A DNA stretch of 64,000 nucleotides from assembly GCA_013204545.1 (NCBI GenBank), contig JABMNN010000061.1:18831-82830 (forward strand). The letters run 5' to 3'. This DNA is from Chloroflexota bacterium. Its GTDB lineage: Bacteria > Chloroflexota > Dehalococcoidia > Lucifugimonadales > Lucifugimonadaceae. The notes under the pieces are model-generated. The model had not been told where the DNA came from, made no database searches, and saw only the letters and a list, made by a program, of their open reading frames with translations. Positions 13,385 to 40,428 of the stretch are shown piece after piece (within the stretch, counting starts at the first letter, position 1; each line of letters begins with the position of its first letter). The position numbers and the translations under genes were made by a program.

Positions 13385-14050
13385 ATGAAACCTTGGATTA
13401 CTGTGGGTGATGCACTTTCGCCTGATGGCACTCGCCTTGAATTAGTTGAGCACGACGGCGATTACGTTATACGAGCGGATGACCTGCCGTTGATGTCGAC
13501 CCGGCTGCACTTCTCTGAAGTCGAGTTGGCACGCCTCGTTTGCACTAAACTAAAACCGGGTGCGAAAGTCATGATCGGCGGACTTGGGCTCGGTTACACC
13601 CTTCGATCAGCTCTCGATCTGATTCCGAAGGACGGTACGGTTGTGCAGGTTGAACTTGTTCCTGAAGTGATCGAATGGAATAAAGGCCCTCTTGCGCCGT
13701 TCGCCAATCACCCGCTGGATGACAAGAGAACCGAGTTGGTGCAGGGAGATGTGGCGAAGATAATTCGTGGAGCACGCAACGAGTACGATGCGATCATGCT
13801 CGATATCGACAATGGTCCATCTCCGTTGGTGAACGAACGCAACGGTTGGCTTTACACATATCACGGTTTGTTGGCGATCAGAAGCGCTCTGAAAAACGGT
13901 GGCAAGGTGGCCATTTGGTCCGCCGATGACGATCCAAGATTTGTTGCCTTAATGAAGCGAAATGGATTCCGTGCAGAGAAGCACCATATTCAGGTGCACA
14001 AAGGAAAAGGCGGAATTCGTCACGTGATATTCACAGGTCGCAAAACTTAG
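13385..14050 (+). CDS. spermidine/spermine synthase-like methyltransferase-fold protein
   Basis: MIGGLGLGYTLRSALDLIPKDGTVVQVELVPEVIEWN, DAIMLDIDNGPSPLVNERNGWLYT. Confidence 0.8.
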   Translation: MKPWITVGDALSPDGTRLELVEHDGDYVIRADDLPLMSTRLHFSEVELARLVCTKLKPGAKVMIGGLGLGYTLRSALDLIPKDGTVVQVELVPEVIEWNKGPLAPFANHPLDDKRTELVQGDVAKIIRGARNEYDAIMLDIDNGPSPLVNERNGWLYTYHGLLAIRSALKNGGKVAIWSADDDPRFVALMKRNGFRAEKHHIQVHKGKGGIRHVIFTGRKT

Positions 14051-37927: not shown

Positions 37928-38050
37928 CGACCACAGGTAGAACCGTTCATGTTGAAGTGACGAGTGGTGACCCCACACATGATTGCTTCACAAATTACCT
38001 ATGTTGAAATTTGCCTTGAACTCGATGTCAGGCGTATATTGAGGTTTGAT

Positions 38051-38158
38051 ATGAGCAACTCACTCCGCACTACAACTACGAACTCGCAGCAAGTCAGCAC
38101 CTGTATGTGTTGCTGTACGCCTGAAGGGGTTCCTAGTTTTGCGTGTTGTACTTGTTGA
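38051..38158 (+). CDS. 35-aa polycysteine short ORF (candidate cysteine attenuation leader peptide; RiPP-like precursor is the alternative)
   Basis: MSNSLRTTTTNSQQVSTCMCCCTPEGVPSFACCTC-stop; -10-like TATATT at 38035-38040 leaves almost no 5' UTR; followed by an intrinsic terminator. Confidence 0.6.
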   Translation: MSNSLRTTTTNSQQVSTCMCCCTPEGVPSFACCTC

Positions 38159-38186
38159 ACTAAACAAGTCGTAACGTAGAGAAATT

Positions 38187-38218
38187 CGAACCCCTGTCGC
38201 AAAGCAGGGGTTTTTTGT
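38187..38218 (+). terminator. rho-independent terminator (AACCCCTG-tcgcaaag-CAGGGGTT + T run)
   Basis: Perfect 8-bp stem whose 3' arm runs into TTTTTT. Confidence 0.9.
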
Positions 38219-38268: not shown

Positions 38269-38379
38269 ATGCTCAACATTTTCAAAATCGCCCTCTCCGG
38301 GATTCGAAAAGCACTCGATTCAGCGCAAGGACTCGGAATCGAAGCCGACTCGCTGGCTCCCGCCCGTAAGCATCGCTAA
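38269..38379 (+). CDS. possible 36-aa small protein
   Basis: MLNIFKIALSGIRKALDSAQGLGIEADSLAPARKHR immediately downstream of the polycysteine ORF/terminator; no clear RBS. Confidence 0.3.
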   Translation: MLNIFKIALSGIRKALDSAQGLGIEADSLAPARKHR

Positions 38380-38539: not shown

Positions 38540-39532
38540 ATGGGGATTACGGTAATGCCTGTACTTACTGTCGAGGAAAAAGAGCACTTCGAAGAGTATG
38601 GATTTGTCCATATTGAAGACGTTTTTGACCCTGAGGGGACCATTGATCCTGTGATCGATGAGTATGCCGCAGTCCTCGATTCGCTCGCCGATAAACTTCA
38701 CGCTGAAGGCAAAATATCATCGACCTATTCAGGGCTCGAATTCGGCGACCGCGTAACTAAAATCTATGGTGAATCGGGCGAAATACACAACCAATTTTTT
38801 GATTTCTCACTCCCGCAAAACGGTGTCTTGCCAGATACTCCGTTCTGGGCAGGTCCTGCAGTATTCAAAGCACTTACTGCTCCCGGACTACTGGACGTCG
38901 CTGAATCTGTCGTTGGTGGCGAGGTCTACTCCAATCCGGTACAACACGTTCGGATTAAGATACCCGAAGCCGTTTCACCACGCGACGAATACGGCAACGT
39001 GATGTTCGGAGCTACACCCTGGCATCAGGATGCTGGAGTTGTAAATCCAGAAGCCGATCAGACCAATATCCTGACGGTTTGGTTTCCTCTGATGGATGCC
39101 GGAGTCGAAAATGGTTGCCTCACGGTCGTCCCCGGGTCCCACCGCGGCGAATTGCTCACGCACTGCCCGGGATACAAAGAACGACCCGGGCTCCAGATCC
39201 CTGAACATCTATTCAATGTCGGCGACTCGATGCCTGTTCCAGTGAAAAAGGGCGGGGCCTTACTGCTGACTAAGCAGACTGTTCATGCAGCACTTCCGAA
39301 CATTAGCAACCGTATTCGATGGAGTTTCGATCTTCGATATCAGCCAACGGGTGAGGCTACCGGACGAAGTGTATTTCCGGGCTTCGTCGCCCGTAGTAAG
39401 TCGAATCCTAATTCAGAGCTTCACGATGCAGAAACTTGGTTCGAGATGTGGAAAGACACCCGCGATTCACTCGCTAGAGGTGATCAGCCATCATTCAATC
39501 GATGGGATGCAGACGATCCCTCCTGCGCGTGA
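38540..39532 (+). CDS. phytanoyl-CoA dioxygenase family protein
   Basis: EEYGFVHIEDVFD, ATPWHQDAGVVNPEADQTNILTVWFPLMDAGVENGCLTVVPGSHR. Confidence 0.9.
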   Translation: MGITVMPVLTVEEKEHFEEYGFVHIEDVFDPEGTIDPVIDEYAAVLDSLADKLHAEGKISSTYSGLEFGDRVTKIYGESGEIHNQFFDFSLPQNGVLPDTPFWAGPAVFKALTAPGLLDVAESVVGGEVYSNPVQHVRIKIPEAVSPRDEYGNVMFGATPWHQDAGVVNPEADQTNILTVWFPLMDAGVENGCLTVVPGSHRGELLTHCPGYKERPGLQIPEHLFNVGDSMPVPVKKGGALLLTKQTVHAALPNISNRIRWSFDLRYQPTGEATGRSVFPGFVARSKSNPNSELHDAETWFEMWKDTRDSLARGDQPSFNRWDADDPSCA

Positions 39533-40428
39533 TTCCAACTACTGCTGAACTCGAAACACTTCGCGAAGCCGGTCGCATCGCCTCCAATGCACGGAACTGG
39601 GCTGCGGAAACGATAAAGACTGGTTACCTGTTGCGCGATCTTCAGGAAGGCATGGAAACGATAATCCGTGAGGCGGGCGCGCTGCCTCCGTTTCCGGCTC
39701 AAACCAGCAGGAACAAAGTCGCTGCGCACTACTGTTCTTCACCAACAGACAACTCTAGATTTGAAGAAAACGACCTTGTAAAGATCGATGTCGGAGCGCA
39801 TATCGATGGGTTAATCGTCGACACCGGAATCTCCGCCGATTTGTCAGAAGATCAGCGCTGGAAGGCACTGATCGGAGCCGCATCAGACGCACTAGATGCA
39901 GCGATTGGCATGTGCTCACCACAGCTCGATGTGGAAGATATTGGCGAACGCGTAGAGGAAGTAATCACCGCAGCCGGATTTCGACCAATTTTGAATCTGA
40001 CGGGCCACGGATTAGGCAGGTATACGCTTCACGACACCCCACAAATTCCAAACGCTCGCATAGGGTTGAAGGGATCGCTTGAGGCAGGATCTATCTTCGC
40101 TATCGAACCATTCGCTACTTCAGGACGCGGCTACATCAAAGATGATGGCAAGCCCGAAGTGTTCATGCTCGAACGCACGCCAAAACCATCCAACAAGATC
40201 GATGCAGAGTCATTTGAAGCCATCCAAAGCTGGAAGGGGCTGCCGATAGCACGACGATATTTCAGCGATATTCCAAAGAAGCCGTTTGAGCGGACTTTGA
40301 AAGAGCTAATCAAACAGGGAGCGGCACGTGAGTACCCGCCGCTATCGGAAGTTACAGGGCACCACGTTGGATGGAAAGAACACTCGATCTGGCTCGGCCC
40401 TGATGGTCCAGAAGTGCTGACGGCGTAG
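39529..40428 (+). CDS. methionine aminopeptidase, type II (archaeal/eukaryal-like), M24 family
   Basis: AGRIASNARNWAAETIKTG, NKVAAHYCSSPTDNSRFEENDLVKIDVGAHIDGLIVDTG, LTGHGLGRYTLHDTPQIPN, GSIFAIEPFAT. GTG 39529 overlaps the preceding stop. Confidence 0.85.
   Translation: MIPTTAELETLREAGRIASNARNWAAETIKTGYLLRDLQEGMETIIREAGALPPFPAQTSRNKVAAHYCSSPTDNSRFEENDLVKIDVGAHIDGLIVDTGISADLSEDQRWKALIGAASDALDAAIGMCSPQLDVEDIGERVEEVITAAGFRPILNLTGHGLGRYTLHDTPQIPNARIGLKGSLEAGSIFAIEPFATSGRGYIKDDGKPEVFMLERTPKPSNKIDAESFEAIQSWKGLPIARRYFSDIPKKPFERTLKELIKQGAAREYPPLSEVTGHHVGWKEHSIWLGPDGPEVLTA

Follow-up and report, generated by a model that had tools for sequence, protein, structure and literature searches.

A candidate cysteine-responsive transcription attenuator upstream of a conserved small-protein gene in SAR202 Chloroflexota

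The locus and the gene that follows the leader

The DNA analyzed here (the window) is a 64,000-nucleotide stretch from a Chloroflexota bacterium. A previous interpretation made without database searches, the sequence-only reading, had pointed to a near-leaderless cysteine-rich ORF followed by a terminator and had proposed a cysteine attenuator. The features of this region are listed below; counts of loci refer to the 27 copies described in the next paragraph.

38011..38040, + strand: promoter, TTGCCT (38011-38016), spacer of 18 nt, and TATATT (38035-38040); it recurs in four genera, and the start site is inferred
38051..38158, + strand: leader ORF MSNSLRTTTTNSQQVSTCMCCCTPEGVPSFACCTC, 35 codons (38051-38155) and TGA (38156-38158); homologues in four genera, low synonymous divergence
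38074..38085, + strand: segment 1 (AACTACGAACTC), pairs with segment 2; supported by folding and by covariation (both-side changes at 8 of 11 pairs, 0/500 shuffles)
38102..38116, + strand: control Cys codons, TGT-ATG-TGT-TGC-TGT (Cys codons 18, 20, 21, and 22); Cys run kept in 27/27 loci
38125..38138, + strand: segment 2 (AGGGGTTCCTAGTT), alternative partner of segment 1 or segment 3; supported by folds, covariation, and codon shuffles
38150..38169, + strand: small hairpin over the stop codon (ACTTGTTgaactaAACAAGT), within the 2:3 loop; clear in the closest relatives of the window, less so elsewhere
38188..38195, + strand: segment 3 (GAACCCCT), 5' arm of the terminator and 3' arm of the antiterminator; supported by complementarity and covariation
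38206..38216, + strand: segment 4 (AGGGG) and U-tract of the intrinsic terminator, whose whole stem spans 38188-38213; present in 27/27 loci
38269..38379, + strand: regulated gene, encoding the conserved 36-aa protein MLNIFKIALSGIRKALDSAQGLGIEADSLAPARKHR; after the terminator at every intact locus

A DNA search of 100 related genomes detected the leader region in 15 of the 18 other genomes of the genus (16 of 19 including that of the window) and gave no convincing match outside the genus. Leader and terminator were also found in three more genera (g12, g2, and g10), all in one SAR202 family of the Chloroflexota, for 27 loci in four genera. The g2 and g10 loci were first found with a profile of the small ORF, and re-inspection revealed a leader and a terminator in front of it. 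The sequence-only reading had called for a search of related genomes for the same ORF and hairpin, and leader, promoter, and terminator do recur there. The genus includes the cultured Candidatus Lucifugimonas marina JH1073 (CP046147.1; PMC10444878), which carries the device at about 329207-329430 on the minus strand. Three genomes (G001, G003, and G007) have neither leader nor small ORF, as was confirmed for G001 by direct reading of its amidohydrolase-dioxygenase interval. A short contig (G098 C81, JASMAO010000081.1) in a genome assigned to another SAR202 family carries a 78% identical aminopeptidase, the small ORF, and the end of the leader, and is likely mis-binned.

Gene order and conservation identify the 36-aa ORF, rather than the dioxygenase or methionine aminopeptidase gene, as the target. 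The 36-aa ORF and the dioxygenase gene had both been named as downstream genes; the 36-aa ORF stands as a conserved gene, and the phytanoyl-CoA dioxygenase gene is missing or displaced in several relatives. It lies 3' of the leader in most genomes of the window's genus, is not found in the interval from leader to aminopeptidase in G002, G006, G010, and G016, and, like the methionine aminopeptidase gene, is separated from the leader by opposite-strand genes in some g12 genomes. The aminopeptidase at 39529-40428 of the window is of type II (archaeal type), found within the family only in g1, g12, and g3 among the genomes searched.

An ORF of 34-37 aa invariably comes next after the terminator. 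The small-ORF family (about 34-44 aa) was recovered at every leader-bearing locus by the profile search. Its substitution rates (dN/dS of about 0.16, dS of about 1.4) indicate that it evolves as a protein under strong protein-level selection. The protein is cationic, with a conserved GL(G/A)(I/V)E motif and a predicted amphipathic helix at residues 2-22; AlphaFold modeled only that helix (pLDDT of about 80 there and 68.5 overall). Searches of Pfam, NCBIfam, and the PDB gave no match. Weak matches in other genomes of the class (G296, G306, G459, G475, and G528) lack a leader and seem fortuitous.

Conservation of the leader and its promoter

The coordinates of the leader ORF and the positions of its seven Cys codons (18, 20, 21, 22, 32, 33, and 35, all in the last 18 codons) are exactly as first described. 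The promoter hexamers are likewise present, with TATATT 10 nt 5' of the ATG and TTGCCT at a spacing of 18. Promoter-like matches alone do not exceed chance expectation over this stretch (1 found versus 2.0 expected from shuffling), and support for the promoter comes solely from the recurrence of its geometry in relatives. TATATT stands 5' of nearly all leader copies, and 24 of 27 loci have 7-13 nt between the -10 hexamer and the ATG; the distance is 16 nt in G009 and G015, and the start is broken in G017. Transcription is expected to begin at or a few nucleotides 5' of the ATG, at about 38046-38051, an inference from promoter position since the start site is unmapped.

Loss of the Cys codons in relatives had been set beforehand as an observation that would refute the attenuator, and they are conserved in four of four genera. 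Every strand-corrected copy in the genus encodes a peptide with the core C.C.C.C.P.G and, after it, another Cys cluster. This second cluster (codons 32, 33, and 35), near the stop codon and 3' of segment 2, is kept in g1 and g12 and absent from g2 and g10. One repeat unit of the Cys run is gone from the G011 leader. The G017 leader has a TGA at codon 6, with the Cys region still in frame from an internal ATG, which could reflect decay, re-initiation, or an assembly error.

The Cys-rich ORF might itself be the product, encoding a small peptide that binds metal or is modified, transcribed from its own promoter to its own terminator and unrelated to the next ORF; within the genus, the end of the peptide (C.CMCTCTP.GV...ACCTC) is indeed well conserved. 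We consider this very unlikely. The g10 leaders have shrunk to 22-25 aa and have lost the C-terminal Cys residues, the small ORF is always next, and the sister leaders described below share Cys runs but not peptide sequence. In addition, constraint on synonymous sites nearly matches that on the peptide: leader dS is about 0.27, roughly one fifth of that of the adjacent small ORF (1.37), with dN/dS of about 0.66, which is the mark of RNA-level constraint. The genome sets used for the two ORFs differ somewhat; over a shared set of close genomes the same contrast was obtained (dS of 0.21 for the leader and 1.16 for the small ORF).

Competing RNA pairings

As the sequence-only reading held, a strong intrinsic terminator follows the ORF (stem 38188-38213, 10 pairs, then a U-tract), and AGGGGTTC (38125-38132), within the ORF, is exactly complementary to GAACCCCT (38188-38195). 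Three competing pairings can be drawn: 1:2 (38074-38085 with 38127-38138), 2:3 (38125-38132 with 38188-38195), and 3:4, the terminator. For the window alone, a run of at least 8 Watson-Crick pairs between ORF and terminator arm arose in 0.3% of codon-shuffled ORFs, and the region folded better than dinucleotide shuffles (z of -2.4). No Rfam family matched anywhere within the window.

The complementarity between the ORF and the terminator arm is conserved in relatives, with compensatory changes. In covariation tests with segment blocks anchored by hand, 90% of cells were paired for 2:3 across 24 distinct rows, with 22 double-change cells (0/500 shuffles); sliding the partner reduced pairing to 31-53%. 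The 1:2 pairing gave 88.6% paired cells and 20 double-change cells across 12 distinct rows (0/500 shuffles). The 2:3 test omitted G148 (poor register), G013 (identical to G012), and G027; the 1:2 test omitted repeats of identical rows and loci in which 1:2 did not fit the common register (e.g., G002, G016, G017, G054, G059, and g10). In the standard register, 2:3 pairing is weak in G018 and G148. In G017 an insertion shifts AGGGGTTG to another reading frame, and the motif AGGGGTT is nonetheless kept.

Folding agreed with mutually exclusive hairpins, both states being foldable in 27/27 loci. With the Cys-codon region masked, 2:3 folded before segment 4 exists at all 27, and with the RNA masked to 12 nt beyond the stop codon the terminator folded, again at all 27. 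The distance from the stop codon to the U-tract is held at 45-59 nt. With no ribosome, the minimum-energy fold before segment 4 favored 2:3 over 1:2 in 26 of 27 loci, and the untranslated state is therefore not clearly "off"; kinetic folding or constant leaderless translation may settle how that state folds.

Cysteine could instead act through translation or Rho, as proposed in mycobacteria, with the hairpin an ordinary terminator. Leaderless polycysteine short ORFs of mycobacteria are reported to act on downstream translation (PMC9031893, PMC13236596), and no conserved terminators were observed in those cases (PMC1262725). We give this proposal very little weight here, since every locus has an intrinsic terminator and a covarying alternative pairing between leader and gene.

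Sister leaders before sulfur genes

A covariance model built from 23 of the leaders at the 27 loci was run over 76 genomes of the family. Twenty matches scoring below the known loci were inspected, and 3 were spurious; the secondary matches G013 C1:2160920, G000 C104, and G003 C68 were discarded for lack of a credible Cys leader. Genuine-looking sister leaders precede cysH-cysDN (cysD and cysN were named by reading translations), YeeE/YedE sulfur transporter genes, DUF4395 genes, a Cys/Met-metabolism PLP enzyme resembling O-acetylhomoserine sulfhydrylase, and a 1-Cys peroxiredoxin with DUF4395. The sequence-only reading had worried that the genes downstream of the leader were not obviously related to cysteine; the sister leaders before cysteine-metabolism genes answer this concern.

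All 35 sister leaders tested have an intrinsic terminator. Pairing between the terminator 5' arm and the leader was above shuffles in aggregate (median p of 0.04; Fisher p of 6e-16, which is optimistic because the rows are related). A survey of CysH loci found a C.?C.?C leader within 400 nt in 22 of the 30 best SAR202 loci and 1 of 30 on the reverse strand; the loci surveyed in the order include three further families. At CysH loci in two other orders of the class, a Cys-rich leader was found in 0 of 35. The window's own genome (G000 C126, CysH at 13939) has a reduced two-Cys leader, MMKIRFSAVQFCSCNSDTLLRDE, and a terminator before cysH; a DCLCCC leader, present in 8 of 19 genomes of the genus, is absent from it.

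Two side observations concern the genes behind such leaders. Genes for DUF4395 membrane proteins, some in tandem, lie behind Cys leaders, which suggests a role for DUF4395 in sulfur metabolism. At G006 C26:2080-2192, a polycysteine leader (MESILSLCVCTCTSSVRDEVL) and a terminator lie 5' of a short-chain dehydrogenase (SDR) gene, an unexpected target.

The spacing of Cys residues like that of metal-binding peptides, and the peroxiredoxin behind one sister leader, are compatible with a leader whose signal is metal or redox state, detected by the nascent Cys-rich peptide, instead of the charging of tRNA-Cys. That seems highly improbable to us, as the targets are mostly sulfur assimilation and transport genes and the peptides are alike in little beyond the Cys run. 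Finally, an amidohydrolase gene lies just 5' of the device in most relatives (in g12 the leader follows the same amidohydrolase as in the window's genus), but the view that the terminator merely ends the amidohydrolase transcript, the short ORF and the complementarity being coincidental, is already contradicted by conservation, by covariation, and by recurrence of the same device before unrelated genes, and can be set aside almost with certainty.

Proposed mechanism and relation to known attenuators

Comparison among relatives establishes which parts the device has, that they are conserved, that the paired segments carry compensatory changes, that both states can fold, and that sister devices exist before sulfur genes. 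On this basis, and without expression data, cysteine attenuation is strongly supported. The earlier suggestion of a cysteine attenuator outside the Actinobacteria thereby gains support from conserved Cys codons and compensatory pairing, with the response to cysteine remaining inferred. In our judgment the device is very probably a ribosome-mediated transcription attenuator that senses charged tRNA-Cys and controls the 36-aa gene. Classical attenuation by ribosome stalling is the simplest account, and it fits the placement of the Cys codons just 5' of segment 2 and of the stop codon between segments 2 and 3.

In this attenuator, a near-leaderless mRNA would start at about 38046-38051 and be translated immediately. 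When cysteine is scarce, the ribosome would stall at the Cys codons (38102-38116), blocking pairing of segment 1 and leaving segment 2 free to form the 2:3 antiterminator, and RNA polymerase would continue into the 36-aa gene at 38269. With ample cysteine, the ribosome would run on to the stop codon (38156) and sit between segments 2 and 3; the 3:4 terminator would then pair and transcription would end. Where transcription starts, that the ribosome stalls, that cysteine is the signal, and which way control runs are all inferred.

Overall, the locus most likely contains a real, conserved, cysteine-responsive transcription attenuator that controls a new small protein and belongs to a SAR202 cysteine regulon. 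A broader and more tentative possibility, to which we would not give even chances, is that SAR202 bacteria have an order-wide cysteine regulon that relies on leader-peptide attenuators and not on a protein regulator, and that one member produces a previously unknown helical small protein only under cysteine starvation, which tunes some machine of sulfur uptake or assimilation. SAR202 is among the ocean's most widespread bacterial groups. We found no literature on Chloroflexi cysteine leader peptides or SAR202 small proteins (subscription papers were outside the search); the device would extend cysteine-codon attenuation to a phylum for which no report was found, with a regulon of many targets. 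It also brings to light a conserved family of small proteins (about 34-44 aa). The way these are regulated gives the best clue to their function and predicts a role in cysteine or sulfur stress. As the cultured strain JH1073, with a complete genome, carries the device, these predictions can be tested now.

Among the closest known systems are the leaderless polycysteine attenuators demonstrated in mycobacteria (Canestrari et al. 2020, Mol Microbiol 114:93-108, as cited in PMC9031893 and PMC13236596). In both, a short ORF that is leaderless or, as inferred here, nearly so carries a run of Cys codons 5' of cysteine and sulfur genes, and, to the extent that these citing sources describe it, ribosome speed on Cys codons is the proposed sensor in mycobacteria. 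The present device is in Chloroflexota rather than Actinobacteria, and this copy controls a new small protein. Cysteine leader peptides predicted in Actinobacteria have no conserved terminators (PMC1262725), whereas an intrinsic terminator with a covarying antiterminator is found here. The device would work like the mycobacterial ORFs but is not classed with them because of the intrinsic terminator at every locus, and it supplies the intrinsic-terminator version missing from those cases.

The uORFC-8-2 motif, found computationally 5' of cysS in Rhodobacterales (PMC8632094), likewise combines a uORF containing Cys codons with a downstream intrinsic terminator. It has two tandem Cys codons and a single target, cysS, in alphaproteobacteria, and two stems are described for it, without covariation support for a third; its position 5' of cysS is not matched here, where the 36-aa ORF is downstream. 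With the trp and his attenuators the device shares a leader peptide enriched for the amino acid that is sensed, segments pairing as 1:2, 2:3, and 3:4, and an intrinsic terminator. It meets three criteria for that type, namely, a leader with a Cys run, a terminator before the gene, and a mutually exclusive antiterminator supported by covariation; increased read-through under limitation of the amino acid is a prediction, and targets in the metabolism of the sensed amino acid are found for the sister devices only. It differs in having its Cys codons in the gap between segments 1 and 2 instead of within segment 1, in an mRNA inferred to be near-leaderless, and in a target at this locus that is no known biosynthetic gene. 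Mechanisms of this kind are known; what appears to be new is the lineage, the design with an intrinsic terminator, and the small protein as target.
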